Shown here: in pieces, positions 3 to 39,800 of the stretch
How the letters are laid out: each line of letters starts with the position of its first letter
How positions within the stretch are numbered: the stretch's first letter is position 1
IMG/VR virus record: IMGVR_UViG_3300043468_000365
Location: 1-64,000 of that record
Origin: a virus
DNA length: 64,000 bases
Direction: 5' to 3' (one strand)
Made by a program: the position numbers and the translations under genes
Notes under the pieces: model-generated
Told to the model about the DNA's origin: nothing
Databases searched by the model: none
The model's input: only the letters and a program-made list of their open reading frames with translations

Positions 3-254
3 ACTAATATCGTGGCCCTCGATAACGTCATATTTGCATCTCCTTCCAAGTCCAAGATTCGTAACCTACAATCAATCGGTAGAGGCCTTCGGGTTAGTGA
101 CACAAAGAAATCCGCCACCCTCTATGATATTGCCGACGACTTTAGCTGGAAGTCCAGAGAGAACTTTACTCTCAAACACTTCTTCGAAAGAATCAAGACA
201 TACAACGAAGAACAATTCAAATTCAAAATATATAAAATAAGCATGGTGAGATGA
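3..254 (+). CDS. uvsW: UvsW-like helicase, C-terminal fragment (5' end outside window)
   Basis: The frame is open from the window edge and ends at TGA 252-254. The visible part matches the C-terminus of T4 UvsW: a DNVIFASPSKSK block followed by the IGRGLR motif VI arginine-finger segment of superfamily 2 helicases, then YDIADD and the NFTLKHFFERIKTYNEE tail. UvsW unwinds branched DNA and R-loops and switches T4 replication from origin to recombination mode. The stop overlaps the next start (ATGA). The helicase core lies upstream of the window. Confidence 0.9.
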   Translation, partial: TNIVALDNVIFASPSKSKIRNLQSIGRGLRVSDTKKSATLYDIADDFSWKSRENFTLKHFFERIKTYNEEQFKFKIYKISMVR

Positions 255-12472: not shown

Positions 12473-12501
12473 TTGACAAATGCGACCGGTTTTGCTATAC
12501 T
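12473..12501 (+). promoter_or_regulatory. sigma70-type promoter of the CobT-like gene
   Basis: TTGACA (12473-12478), 17 bp, TATACT (12496-12501). The 25-nt leader contains ATCGTGAAAGGAA, which recurs exactly before the CobS-like gene. Confidence 0.85.
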
Positions 12502-12525
12502 TGTGAAAATCGTGAAAGGAACACT

Positions 12526-14745
12526 ATGACCGCAATGACCGTAAATTCCAACTCGCTTCTTGCCAAGCTGTTGGCGACCGAGAACATTACTGTTCAGCAT
12601 AAGAGCGGTATCAAAACCGCTATGTTCGACCTCAAGAACCGTGTTCTTATGCTGCCTATGTGGCATGATATTTCGCAGGATCTTGAGCATTTGCTTATCG
12701 GTCACGAAACGGCTCATGCTATTGATACGCCTTCAGGCGAAGAGTATAAAAAGGCATATGAGGATATTGCTAATCGTGTATTCGGTTCCGAAGTTAGCGA
12801 TCAGCTAAAGCGCACCGTCCAGGGCTTCGTTAATGTTATCGAAGATGTCCGTATTGACAAGCGCCAGAAGCGCCGTTATCCTGGTCTTCGTCGTAACTAT
12901 CTCGCTGGTTATAAAGAACTTATTGACCGTGACTTCTTCGGCACGAAGGGTCGTGATATCAATTCTATGAACTTTATCGACCGTGTCAATGTCTACTTCA
13001 AGGGTGGTAACATCAATCTCAATATTGAGTTTACTCCCGAAGAGCGAGTGCTTCTAAAGCAGATTGAAAATATTGAAACTTTCGCAGAGGTTGTGGAAGT
13101 TGCCGAGAAGGTGTATCGTTTTTGTAAAGATAAGATTGAAAACGATATTCATAACGACCTCGGTCTTGGCGAAAGCGAAGATGGAGACAAAGGAGACTCC
13201 TATGACATTGACGATTTTTCCGATGATGCTGACGATTGGGATGGTGACCTTGATGGTGATGATTCCGAAGAAGATGCCGAAGACGGTGAAGGTGACGAAG
13301 GTGAAGGTAAATCCGACGCTGTAAAGGGCGAAGGTGATATCGGTGATAATGGTTCTGGTAATACCTCTGATGGTGCTGGTGCCAGTTCCGATGAAATCAA
13401 GGCTCCCGAGTCTTATACTGACCGTGTTTGGGAAGAAAAAGTTCAGGAACTAGTCAAAGACGATAATACCGATTATGTCTATGTCACCCTTCCTGATGTA
13501 AACTGGGACAAGGCTATTCACGATTATAAGCGAGTTCTTAGTGATTGGCGTCGTCTGGTTGGCGCTGGTTACTACGGACACTTTTCTAAGAAGACCTTTG
13601 AAGAAGGTCGTGCCGCTTTCAACCAGTGGCGTCAAAAAGAAAAAGATAGCATTTCGTTTCTTGTAAAAGAGTTTGAGCAGCGCAAGGCTGCGGAAATGTA
13701 TTCTCGCATTTCTGTGGCTAAGACTGGTGTTATTGACACTAATAAACTCCACTCTTACAAGTTCAATGATGATATCTTCCGTCGGTTGACTACAGTGCCG
13801 GAAGGCAAGAACCATGGCTTTATCATGTTTCTTGATTGGTCTGGTTCTATGGATAGAAACCTGAAGTATACTCTTCGGCAGTTGTTTACTCTGGTTCTGT
13901 TTTGTAAGCAGATCCAAGTGCCGTTCGAGGTGTATGCCTTCAAGGATTCTGGTGCTGAAAATCCATTCTCTTATCTTGGTAAAGAGAATGTTATTGGTCT
14001 TGGTAACGTGGTGCTTCGCCAGTTTCTATCTTCCAAGATGACTCTTGCGGAACTAAACGAGGCTATGACGTTTCTTTCTATGGTTGGTGGTCATAGTCGT
14101 CTTTATACTGATGGTCTCGGTGGCACGCCTCTCAATGAGGCAGTTATTCTTGCTCCTAAGATTATCAACGACTTCCGTGCCAAACATAAGTTGGAAATCG
14201 TCAACACTATTTTCCTTACCGATGGTGAGTCAAACGGTCTTGGTGGTATCAAAAATTGTACCGGTGTTCAACCTGGTCGTAAGGTTATGTATAAGTATGT
14301 TGATAAGTCTTCTGGTAAGACTTACGATATCAGCCTTTACGGTTGGGGTGATGGTGCAAACACCACTAACAAGTTTCTAAAGATGCTAAAGGATCAGACT
14401 GATTGTAATCTGATTGGTTTCTTTCTGTCTGATTCCAACATCAAACGGTTCTTGTCTCGCTTTGGTATGAATGATGGTACCAACTATCACTACGTCGAAA
14501 AGGTTGTCAAGTTCTGGAAAGAAAACAAGTTCTATCCAGTCAAGAATGAAGGTTATGATGAATATTATGTGATCAATTCCAATGTTCTTCGTGAAACGGA
14601 GAACGAATTGGAAATCGACAATACAAAGTCCACGAAATCCATGGCCAAGGCATTCTCCAAGTTTGCCGCTAAAAAGTCCATCAATCGTGTCCTTCTGCGT
14701 CAGTTCATCAATAACGTTACGCAACAGTCCAAGAAGATTGCGTAA
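12526..14745 (+). CDS. CobT-like VWA-domain protein with zinc-protease motif
   Basis: 739 aa. HETAH zinc motif at 60-64 and a NVIEDVRIDK segment near 103-112 that supplies a third ligand, as in CobT-like metallopeptidase/VWA proteins. A very acidic linker (about 215-292) precedes a VWA domain with MIDAS motif DWSGS (437-441). The partner AAA+ ATPase follows. MoxR/CobS ATPases with VWA partners act as chaperone-like remodelling machines; real cobaltochelatase would need CobN, absent here. Leu codons are mostly CTT/CTC/CTG, unlike the CTA-rich neighbours, consistent with early expression. Own strong promoter and AAGGAA ribosome site. Confidence 0.85.
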   Translation: MTAMTVNSNSLLAKLLATENITVQHKSGIKTAMFDLKNRVLMLPMWHDISQDLEHLLIGHETAHAIDTPSGEEYKKAYEDIANRVFGSEVSDQLKRTVQGFVNVIEDVRIDKRQKRRYPGLRRNYLAGYKELIDRDFFGTKGRDINSMNFIDRVNVYFKGGNINLNIEFTPEERVLLKQIENIETFAEVVEVAEKVYRFCKDKIENDIHNDLGLGESEDGDKGDSYDIDDFSDDADDWDGDLDGDDSEEDAEDGEGDEGEGKSDAVKGEGDIGDNGSGNTSDGAGASSDEIKAPESYTDRVWEEKVQELVKDDNTDYVYVTLPDVNWDKAIHDYKRVLSDWRRLVGAGYYGHFSKKTFEEGRAAFNQWRQKEKDSISFLVKEFEQRKAAEMYSRISVAKTGVIDTNKLHSYKFNDDIFRRLTTVPEGKNHGFIMFLDWSGSMDRNLKYTLRQLFTLVLFCKQIQVPFEVYAFKDSGAENPFSYLGKENVIGLGNVVLRQFLSSKMTLAELNEAMTFLSMVGGHSRLYTDGLGGTPLNEAVILAPKIINDFRAKHKLEIVNTIFLTDGESNGLGGIKNCTGVQPGRKVMYKYVDKSSGKTYDISLYGWGDGANTTNKFLKMLKDQTDCNLIGFFLSDSNIKRFLSRFGMNDGTNYHYVEKVVKFWKENKFYPVKNEGYDEYYVINSNVLRETENELEIDNTKSTKSMAKAFSKFAAKKSINRVLLRQFINNVTQQSKKIA

Positions 14746-14766
14746 AATCAAAGACTTAGGAAGGGG

Positions 14767-14795
14767 TTGACAAGATCCCTTCCTTGTGGTATAAT
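14767..14795 (+). promoter_or_regulatory. sigma70-type promoter of the CobS-like gene
   Basis: TTGACA (14767-14772), 17 bp, TATAAT (14790-14795): a consensus promoter placed 21 bp after the stop of the CobT-like gene. Confidence 0.9.
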
Positions 14796-14803
14796 ACATC
14801 ATA

Positions 14804-14832
14804 ATCGAAAATCGTGAAAGGAAAGTTTCGAT
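14804..14832 (+). promoter_or_regulatory. Leader stem-loop presenting the ribosome binding site
   Basis: ATCGAAA (14804-14810) and TTTCGAT (14826-14832) form a perfect 7-bp stem ending at the base before ATG 14833. The 15-nt loop (14811-14825) holds the AAAGGA Shine-Dalgarno. Fourteen loop bases (14812-14825) are exactly complementary to 16163-16176 in the structured RNA downstream of the gene. Confidence 0.75.
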
Positions 14833-16056
14833 ATGGCTAAATCTACCGATAACCGTTCTGTGTTTCTGGACAAGGTCCGCTTTGAGTTTGGTGCCATTCG
14901 TGAAATCACCCGTCAGCAAATTTTGACCATTCACGAAAAGTATGGTATTTATCCTGCTTGGCTTGTGAAAGATCCCTCTCTCCGTGTTGGTCGTGGTGTT
15001 TATGCTTTGACCGATCACGGTGTAAATCTTGCTCCCGTTGCTGAAAAGACGGTTGCTCCTCGTAAGACTGCTAAGATCCAGTCTGATATTCCTGTTGTTG
15101 AGTCCGTTGTTGCTATGGCTCCTTCCTCTACGATTGCTATGGCTGCGGCTTCCACTTCTGCTTCTGCCGAGGTTTCGCTAGTGCCTGAAAAGGCGAATGG
15201 CTATGTGCCGTTCGGTAACTTTAGCGATGTTCGTTCTATCATCAAGTCTAAGAAGTTTTATCCTGCTTACGTTACTGGTCTTTCTGGTAACGGTAAGACG
15301 ATGATGGTCGAACAGGTTTGTGCCGTTGAAAAGCGTGAGTGCGTCCGTGTCAATATTACTATTGAAACCGACGAAGATGATCTTATTGGTGGTTTCCGCC
15401 TTGTCGATGGTGCTACTGTCTGGCAGGATGGTCCTGTTATTGTTGCCATGCAGCGTGGTGCTATTCTTCTTCTGGACGAAGTTGACCTTGGCTCCAATAA
15501 GCTAATGTGTCTCCAGCCTGTTCTCGAAGGCAAGTCTGTTTATCTCAAAAAGATTAACCGTCTTGTCCATCCTGAAAATGGTTTCAACGTTATTGCTACG
15601 GCGAATACCAAGGGTAAGGGTTCCGACGATGGTCGCTTTATCGGCACCAACGTTATGAACGAAGCGTTCCTTGAGCGTTTCTCTATCACGATGGAACAGG
15701 AATATCCTTCGACTAAGATTGAAACCAAAATCCTCAACAATGTTCTTGGTGCTTCTGGTATCGAGAGTGCCGAATTTGTTGAGAAGTTGGTGACTTGGGC
15801 AGATGTTATTCGCAAGTCCTTCTATGAAGGTGCCTTGTCTGAAATCATCTCCACTCGCCGTCTGGTTCATATCTGCGAGGCATTTGCCATCTTTAATCAG
15901 AACCGTATGAAGGCTATAGAACTTTGTCTCAACCGCTTTGATGTGGATACTAAGAATGCGTTTATGGAACTCTATAAGAAAGTCGATGAAACCGTTGATC
16001 CGCAACCTGTTCCGCAACCGGAAGCAACCATCACTGGTGAGGAAGTTGCTTTCTGA
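14833..16056 (+). CDS. CobS/MoxR-like AAA+ ATPase
   Basis: 407 aa. An N-terminal winged-helix-like segment (1-65), an Ala/Ser-rich linker, then the AAA+ core: Walker A GLSGNGKT (149-156), Walker B ILLLDEVD (211-218), sensor I VIATANTKG and a GRFIGTN/LERF arginine-finger region. CobS-like genes are common in T4-like cyanophages, where their role is unresolved. It forms a two-gene unit with the VWA protein. By hand count only about 2 of some 30 Leu codons are CTA, against roughly half in gp45. Confidence 0.85.
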   Translation: MAKSTDNRSVFLDKVRFEFGAIREITRQQILTIHEKYGIYPAWLVKDPSLRVGRGVYALTDHGVNLAPVAEKTVAPRKTAKIQSDIPVVESVVAMAPSSTIAMAAASTSASAEVSLVPEKANGYVPFGNFSDVRSIIKSKKFYPAYVTGLSGNGKTMMVEQVCAVEKRECVRVNITIETDEDDLIGGFRLVDGATVWQDGPVIVAMQRGAILLLDEVDLGSNKLMCLQPVLEGKSVYLKKINRLVHPENGFNVIATANTKGKGSDDGRFIGTNVMNEAFLERFSITMEQEYPSTKIETKILNNVLGASGIESAEFVEKLVTWADVIRKSFYEGALSEIISTRRLVHICEAFAIFNQNRMKAIELCLNRFDVDTKNAFMELYKKVDETVDPQPVPQPEATITGEEVAF

Positions 16057-16090
16057 ATAGATGAATACGGTTTACAGATAGACAAAAACG

Positions 16091-16188
16091 GAGTCGCATG
16101 GCTGTGACTCTATAATGAATGCCCGTGTATAATAAAATGATGCTGGTGGTTATACACGGGTCCTTTCCTTTCACGACCACCAGCATCA
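16091..16188 (+). ncRNA. Structured RNA with interlocked stems and an antisense loop
   Basis: Three elements: (a) GAGTCGCA-TGGC-TGTGACTC (16091-16110), an 8-bp inverted repeat with one wobble just upstream of TATAAT (16111-16116); (b) an 11-bp perfect stem, 16122-16132 with 16150-16160; (c) a 13-bp perfect stem, 16138-16150 with 16176-16188. Stem (c) starts inside the loop of (b), so they form either a pseudoknot or mutually exclusive hairpins. The single-stranded segment 16161-16176 is antisense to the ribosome-site leaders of the CobS-like (14 nt) and CobT-like (12 nt) genes. TATAAT 16111 would start RNA about 16123, at the first stem, but its -35 region is poor and is covered by the inverted repeat, so an activator or read-through may be needed. 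No T-tract follows; the RNA may continue into the HTH gene as its 5' leader. Confidence 0.75.
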
Positions 16189-16213
16189 AAAACTTTGAAT
16201 GGAGAAATATATA

Positions 16214-16435
16214 ATGGCTACTAATCGTAAGTCTCAGATTGAGAAGATTGAGAACGTTCTTCGCAAGTATAACACTGGTGCTGGTGTTACTGCCGATAAG
16301 GTTGCTTCACTAGCCCGTGTTCCTCGTGAGAATGTTTCCAAGCGTGTTTATGATCTTCGTGAGTATTACACAATCTATACAAACTATCGTGACGTAGACG
16401 GTCGCCGCACTGCTTTCTATCGCTTTGCTGGCTAA
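16214..16435 (+). CDS. Small winged-helix DNA-binding protein, 73 aa
   Basis: A helix-turn-helix pattern (GVTADKVASLARVPRENVSKRVYDL) is followed by a wing-like GRRTAFYRF. ATG 16214 has GGAG 9 nt upstream; an upstream in-frame ATG at 16199 is less well placed. It lies just after the structured RNA and a palindrome in a promoter, so it is a candidate autoregulator or regulator of the AAA/VWA unit. That link is inference. Confidence 0.75.
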   Translation: MATNRKSQIEKIENVLRKYNTGAGVTADKVASLARVPRENVSKRVYDLREYYTIYTNYRDVDGRRTAFYRFAG

Positions 16436-39725: not shown

Positions 39726-39800
39726 GCCCCTATGGCAGAGTGGTTATGCGGTCGTCTCTAAAACGACTTTACGTGGGTTCAAGTCCTACTAGGGGCACCA
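39726..39800 (+). tRNA. tRNA-Sup(CTA), amber suppressor, CCA encoded
   Basis: Full cloverleaf: acceptor GCCCCTA/TAGGGGC, 3-bp D stem GCA/TGC, anticodon stem GTCGT/ACGAC with loop CTCTAAA (T33, anticodon CTA, A37), variable TTTAC, T arm GTGGG-TTCAAGT-CCTAC, A73, CCA. The anticodon reads UAG. The amino acid cannot be settled: type I body and A73. It stands 9 kb away from the main tRNA array. Confidence 0.88.

Follow-up and report, generated by a model that had tools for sequence, protein, structure and literature searches.

A predicted H-type RNA pseudoknot conserved ahead of a small winged-helix gene of T4-like phages, with a loop complementary to the Shine-Dalgarno regions of cobT- and cobS-like genes

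An H-type RNA pseudoknot occupies the leader of gene 32, a nucleic-acid-binding protein gene of T4-like phages, and an account from 2010 considered it to be perhaps the only viral pseudoknot engaged in translational autoregulation (PMC3014915). The C4 antisense RNA of phages P1 and P7, which is represented in Rfam as RF01695 (PMC2864571), is an RNA in sense orientation within an operon (PMC8198154), with segments that can pair with the ribosome site of an adjacent gene, and in the icaR message of Staphylococcus aureus a downstream segment in the 3'-UTR pairs with the Shine-Dalgarno sequence in the 5'-UTR of its own message and blocks initiation (PMC3868564). Structured or antisense RNAs have also been described in T4-like cyanophages (viz. 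the manA, wcaG, abiF and CfrI RNAs) (PMC2864571, PMC12197685). In the present work, we describe a phage element that resembles each of these systems in part. It is located in a stretch of 64,000 nucleotides, referred to as a whole as the window, from an IMG/VR record of 96,432 bases, and all unlabelled coordinates below are those of the window. Our search of papers available under CC0, CC BY or CC BY-SA found nothing on this element, which may still be described in print.

The pseudoknot and its conservation among related loci

The genes of this neighbourhood (viz. a glycosyltransferase, the cobT-like phrog_459 'peptidase', the cobS-like phrog_249 AAA+ protein, a dNMP kinase and a gp45-like clamp) indicate that the record derives from a T4-like phage, and the nearest relative of the cobS-like protein in a named phage is that of Pelagibacter phage HTVC008M (54%). 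The cobT-like gene (12526–14745, 739 aa) and the cobS-like gene (14833–16056, 407 aa) are both on the plus strand, and we know of no settled role for such genes in phages. They are followed on the same strand by a small gene for a 73 aa protein (16214–16435), whose ATG we place at 16214 and the ORF finder at 16199. Its product is predicted to be a winged helix of the MarR/HTH_11 kind: the AlphaFold model (pLDDT 86.6) retrieved winged helices in Foldseek (best E 2.2e-3, none below 1e-3), and 14 of 37 relatives of the protein matched HTH_11 (best 3.1e-8). Searched on its own, the protein could be assigned neither to a PHROG nor, at the curated cut-off, to a Pfam family, and it had no relative in 50,697 phage records. 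The preliminary description of this DNA had placed the stems downstream of the cobS-like gene, where they do lie, but the element also belongs to the leader of the 73 aa gene. Elsewhere in the window, ARAGORN calls a tRNA with a CTA anticodon at 39726–39800 (named tRNA-Pyl, possibly an amber suppressor; 27 tRNAs were reported).

Two stems interlock in this leader, and an exact check of their arms on the plus strand reproduced the 11 bp and 13 bp helices first described there. Stem 1 (S1) joins 16122–16132 to 16150–16160, with 17 nt between its arms, and stem 2 (S2) joins 16138–16150 to 16176–16188, with 25 nt between its arms; the first loop (L1, 16133–16137) has 5 nt, and the third loop (L3, 16161–16175) is rich in pyrimidines. 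Because both stems claim base 16150, only one of them can use it. The 116-nt region is predicted to fold better than 200 of 200 shuffles (z -4.77), and the calculated energies of the stems taken singly are -15.2 kcal/mol for S1 and -26.2 kcal/mol for S2. A 9 bp hairpin (16090–16111, plus strand) lies 5' of the pseudoknot, and the same hairpin with letters changed on both arms is found in locus L004. No Rfam family matched the element, whether the gathering or a relaxed threshold was applied, and the searches returned only tRNAs and sub-threshold chance matches.

For comparison, we fetched 80 cobS loci (the best 80 of at least 599), 54 loci with relatives of the small gene, and then 80 more loci by means of the alignment of the small gene (the best 80 of 168). 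By junction sequence these are referred to here under our own labels as clades A (that of the window), B, C and D, where C is a mixed remainder. In 21 distinct, aligned clade A cores, 98.0% of the cells are paired, compared with 92.7% in shuffles, and 34 cells carry double changes, compared with 10.8 in shuffled alignments (0 of 500 shuffles as high); further pair types are not above the shuffles (15 versus 16.2). Covariation, which the preliminary description had named as the check on both stems, is present in each of them: six of the 12 S2 pairs show two-sided changes and one S1 pair does so, seven of the 12 S1 pairs being invariant. G-U pairs are present in S1 and S2 among these cores, and the clade B junctions have a long S1 and an S2 of TCGTCG/CGACGA. 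The compensatory changes support the view that the stems form a real RNA pseudoknot.

In an automatic search, 51 of 61 leaders scored higher than every one of their 50 shuffles, the exceptions being L046, L047, L053, L055, L058, L064, L066, L110, L112 and L128, of which L110 and L112 are loci that start close to the element. A fixed threshold was exceeded by 30 of 30 clade A, 3 of 9 clade B and 13 of 20 clade C leaders versus 3 of 598 control windows, and one of these three control matches is itself a cobS leader (L192:1232). The loop between the stems (L2) measures 0–1 nt in 45 of the 46 high-scoring leaders. Seven of ten clade D leaders also pass when a slightly longer search stretch is used; in L269 of this clade a relative of the small gene occurs without the pseudoknot, which is weak in L053 and L066. 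The failure of six of the nine clade B leaders is due in part to a tRNA-like stretch, which makes the third loop longer than the 40 nt permitted in the search. This tRNA-like sequence (GCGGAG...CTCCGCTCCA) is seen inside the third loop of clade B loci L041, L042, L046, L047, L040, L111 and L250; ARAGORN reports it, as tRNA-???, only for L046 and L047, and it gave no Rfam match at gathering in L042, L046, L040 or L111. In HTVC008M (L207, 4150–4300), cobS and a gene annotated as ribosomal protein S21 are separated by a hairpin and a tRNA-like sequence, an arrangement that recalls clade B. In L096 (3951–4902), the pseudoknot is separated from cobS by two extra ORFs of 188 and 132 aa, of which the former appears to encode a protein of the homing-endonuclease type.

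Five loci without the small gene (L060, L061, L075, L077 and L081) have, by eye, an ordinary hairpin and T-run after cobS instead, which indicates that the pseudoknot goes with the small gene. A pattern scan of IMG/VR recovered the 18-nt loop in 33 contigs, all of which had previously been recognised as carrying this locus, and a scan with the arm pattern recovered 48 contigs, two of which (L129 and L156) had no match to the three query proteins. On the basis of pairing, covariation and position, the leader of the small gene almost certainly contains a conserved H-type pseudoknot.

The third loop and the leaders of the cobT- and cobS-like genes

The segment CTTTCCTTTCACGA (16163–16176, plus strand) is, as had been reported, the exact reverse complement of 14 nt in the cobS-like leader (TCGTGAAAGGAAAG, 14812–14825), and 12 nt match the cobT-like leader (TCGTGAAAGGAA, 12510–12521), where the target includes the Shine-Dalgarno sequence and is kept in relatives. 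Within the window, TTCCTTTCACGA occurs exactly three times, at 12510–12521 and 14812–14823 on the minus strand and at 16165–16176 on the plus strand, a result found in 0 of 100 shuffles. In the 96-kb record, the junction is the sole place on the plus strand with at least 11 nt of complementarity to the cobS leader, and likewise the sole one with 12 nt to the cobT leader. The preliminary description had considered chance complementarity to be unlikely because the match includes UCGUG, which is not part of a generic ribosome site.

In clade A, mean pairwise identity is 0.959 for L3 (columns 46–58), 0.939 for S1, 0.824 for S2 and 0.722 for L1, compared with 0.573 at the four-fold third positions of cobS in these 20 loci. 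Over 13 nt, 14 of the 20 loops have the same sequence; one C is missing from four others, and the remaining two differ by one change. Contiguous duplexes, with G-U allowed, reach 11–15 bp with the cobS leader in 19 of 22 cases and 9 bp in the other three, the cobS match being only 9 nt in L028, L030 and L037; with the cobT leader they reach 10–14 bp in 15 of 16 cases and 8 bp in one (a 17th row, L036, is left out of this count), and the cobT match is mostly lost in L012. Where loop or leader has changed, the change of the base beside GTG is compensated in L018 and not in L093, and changes in L094 and L095 are accommodated by G-U. A duplex of 12 bp with the standard loop was reached by 5 of 549 gene leaders, targets included. 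When all gene leaders of a genome are ranked as targets of L3, cobS and cobT hold ranks 1 and 2 of 148 in G000, and cobS holds rank 1 of 221 in G002. In G004, of 228 leaders, cobT comes third by energy and first when exact length is used, with cobS outside the top six; in G001, where the loop is changed by one base (G-U), neither is among the six best energies.

Using the whole junction as the query, with 150 controls per case from which leaders with GTGAAAGG had been removed, 18 of 22 cobS and 12 of 17 cobT cases in clade A were matched by at most 2% of controls. The corresponding figures are 0 of 8 and 1 of 4 for clade B, where the one match falls in promoter letters and no cobS leader of the eight passes even at the 10% level, and 3 of 18 and 0 of 11 for clade C. 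Six clade D loci checked against their own cobS leaders showed no antisense. The clade C matches are of another kind: in L057, L063 and L078, L1 and the 5' arm of S2 match the own cobS leader (AAGTGACCGAA) between the Shine-Dalgarno sequence and the ATG, and L051 has a 9 nt match of the same sort (6% of controls). These matches of 9–11 nt differ from that of clade A, and because the loci are related they probably represent one or two events. The complementarity between loop and ribosome sites put forward in the preliminary description has persisted in clade A, where the loop is more strongly conserved than either stem, and it is absent from clades B and D and most of clade C. The homologous loci retain the genes and the stems together, but the complementarity not always, which goes halfway towards the outcome that the preliminary description had named as refuting its reading. 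Since clades B and D and most of clade C keep the pseudoknot without it, the antisense appears to be a further function that does not account for the stems.

The target side shows a similar distribution. Among distinct clade A leaders, GTGAAAGG is present in 22 of 23 for cobS (the exception, L085, has a misplaced start) and in 13 of 16 for cobT (the start is misplaced in L036, and L012 and L027 truly differ), and the GTG before the Shine-Dalgarno sequence is kept in the same pattern (22 of 23 and 13 of 16). Elsewhere, GTGAAAGG is found before cobS and cobT, respectively, in 3 of 6 and 0 of 4 clade B leaders and in 1 of 18 and 0 of 11 clade C leaders. From these counts, letters beyond the Shine-Dalgarno sequence are retained in the presence of the antisense but not exclusively so, as GTGAAAGG is also kept without an antisense loop in the leaders of three clade B members and of L055. 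TGAAAGG precedes 4–9 genes per genome, and the genes preceded by GTGAAAGG in clade A genomes always include cobT and cobS; in the clade B genome GTGAAAGG stands before no gene. We also considered L3 as a general anti-Shine-Dalgarno sequence for many early genes and rejected this, as GTGAAAGG precedes only 2–4 genes in clade A genomes. In G001 a third leader (C1:21320), before an ORF of 148 aa, contains CGTGAAAGGAAAA and is a possible extra target in that phage.

These data also bear on the view that the pseudoknot leader by itself controls the winged-helix gene, e.g. as a site of autogenous repression of the T4 gene 32 type or as a stability element at the 5' end, with the cobS/cobT complementarity being functionless and L3 being kept for protein or tertiary contacts. 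It would account for the observation that across the four groups the pseudoknot goes with the small gene and the antisense does not, and for the partly generic character of a pyrimidine-rich antisense to purine-rich Shine-Dalgarno sequences, of which the frequency of TGAAAGG is an example. It does not readily account for a match that extends past the Shine-Dalgarno sequence into UCGUG, for the 12 nt or more common to two separate leaders, or for an L3 that is more conserved than the stems and a match that controls rarely reach. We consider this view unlikely, and an antisense action of L3 on cobS and cobT in clade A is judged to be probable.

In the cobS leader, the target is located in the loop of a perfect 7 bp hairpin (14804–14810/14826–14832, plus strand) that ends at the ATG, in agreement with the preliminary description, which had read the arrangement as a loop-loop (kissing) contact. 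By energy the hairpin is not unusual (z -0.67; 55 of 200 shuffles as good), and it is moderately kept in relatives: its mean score is 5.6 versus a null of 4.3 in 22 clade A leaders and 4.5 versus 4.4 in six clade B leaders. The cobT leader has no hairpin to speak of around its target. A kissing contact between L3 and the cobS hairpin is possible, but we do not claim it, since no more than 6 of the 22 clade A hairpins reach p < 0.05.

Promoter overlap and a proposed mechanism

Sequences of the sigma-70 type precede the cobT-like gene (12473–12501, TTGACA-17-TATACT, 11 of 12 consensus letters) and the cobS-like gene (14767–14795, TTGACA-17-TATAAT, 12 of 12), both on the plus strand. The -35 box of the latter lies in the loop of an exact 8 bp inverted repeat, AGGAAGGG/CCCTTCCT (14758–14784); analogous repeats with other letters occur in relatives, and several clade C loci have AGGTGGC/GCCACCT around this box. 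The small gene has a promoter-like sequence at 16104–16133 (plus strand, GTGACT-18-TATAAT, 10 of 12), the -10 box of which (16128–16133) falls in the 5' arm of S1. In clades A and B, TTGACA-16..18-TATAAT is likewise found with the -10 box inside this arm, and in clades C and D S1 mostly begins 0–4 nt after the -10 box. Eleven or 12 of the 12 consensus letters are present in 14 of 31 clade A, 3 of 9 clade B and 8 of 19 clade C leaders listed, the stretch scanned in clade B being too short for loci with the tRNA-like loop, where the same sequence is visible by eye. Several clade A loci (e.g. L093, L023, L036 and L098) are without a good -35 box. Stem 1 very probably lies across the promoter of the small gene.

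Because S1 contains or abuts the -10 box, RNA started at this promoter is expected to be without the 5' arm of S1 in clades A and B, and to have only some of that arm in most of clades C and D, and read-through RNA from cobS would carry all of S1 and hence the whole pseudoknot. We infer that the element could in this way tell promoter-started from read-through RNA, and treat the two differently. A small RNA of the kind suggested earlier for action in trans would, if made from the small-gene promoter, be without the 5' arm of S1.

The proximity of promoters and target letters could also be read at the level of DNA, TCGTGAAAGGAA being a protein site 3' of the three promoters (of cobT, cobS and the small gene), perhaps for the winged-helix protein, and S1 being a palindromic operator over the promoter of its gene. 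The exactly three copies in the window, each about 10–45 bp from a promoter-like sequence, and the MarR/HTH_11-like product are in keeping with this. Against it are the G-U pairs in S1, in S2 and in the loop/leader duplex of L094, and the stems that abut with 0–1 nt between them in 45 of 46 leaders, which an operator would not require; the junction copy is antisense and within a single-stranded loop. We regard an operator as very unlikely. A terminator over a promoter, in which S1 and a U- or pyrimidine-rich L3 would end cobS transcripts and an inner promoter would start the next gene, with S2 and the antisense being secondary, is highly improbable as a general account. The L3 of clades C and D often begins with T-runs, for which reason S1 and L3 may act as a terminator in those clades, and the five relatives without the small gene have their hairpin and T-run (by eye) at the same place; but clade A has a pyrimidine tract there, with CCTTTCCTTTCAC, clade B is without a T-run, and S2 is conserved by compensatory change. 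Moreover, the -35 box is gone from several clade A loci, in which termination would silence the small gene.

The explanation that we favour combines the pseudoknot leader and the promoter-laid stem with a clade A loop that lowers translation of cobT and cobS; taken as a whole, we consider it reasonably probable on the sequence comparisons. L3 would have become, in clade A, a conserved antisense of the cobT and cobS Shine-Dalgarno regions, and most likely it would pair with the two leaders, either in cis within one long message or in trans between separate copies. After transcription of the junction, this pairing would lower cobT and cobS translation and thereby provide feedback. A consideration against it is that the closed pseudoknot may have to open before its 15-nt loop can form a 14 bp duplex. 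A more elaborate version, which we put forward tentatively and consider doubtful, is that the 70-nt junction is three devices in one, viz. a promoter-straddling stem formed only in read-through RNA, a pseudoknot over the winged-helix gene, and an antisense loop reporting completed transcription of the operon to the ribosome sites of the two upstream genes, with antisense having arisen at least twice, from L3 in clade A and from L1 and the 5' arm of S2 in part of clade C.

Comparison with known systems

The element is a predicted, conserved phage RNA that lacks an Rfam match and recurs on distinct contigs of uncultured phages, dozens in number. A functional antisense loop would mean that an operon of a lytic phage contains its own feedback on the cobT/cobS-like genes, and the promoter-straddling stem would be a simple way for an RNA to tell where it started. 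The junction gave no match to the C4 covariance model (RF01695) in an Rfam search; C4 lies upstream of its target genes and is not known to be a pseudoknot. Beside gene 32, the element would be a second candidate for a viral autoregulatory pseudoknot, in many natural variants, going by the account in PMC3014915. In comparison with gene 32 as portrayed there, the pseudoknot described here precedes a winged-helix gene and not that of a single-strand-binding protein, has much longer stems, overlaps a promoter and contains an antisense loop (PMC3014915). The icaR interaction, in the description given of it, involves a short UCCCCUG motif, no pseudoknot and one target, whereas two target leaders and a structured, promoter-straddling carrier are found here (PMC3868564). 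The cyanophage RNAs, as presented in their reports, concern other genes and structures (PMC2864571, PMC12197685). By the features compared, the element belongs to none of the gene 32, C4 and icaR families, and what is new in it, judged by this comparison, is the combination of a gene-32-like pseudoknot with a C4- or icaR-like antisense, together with the overlap with a promoter.
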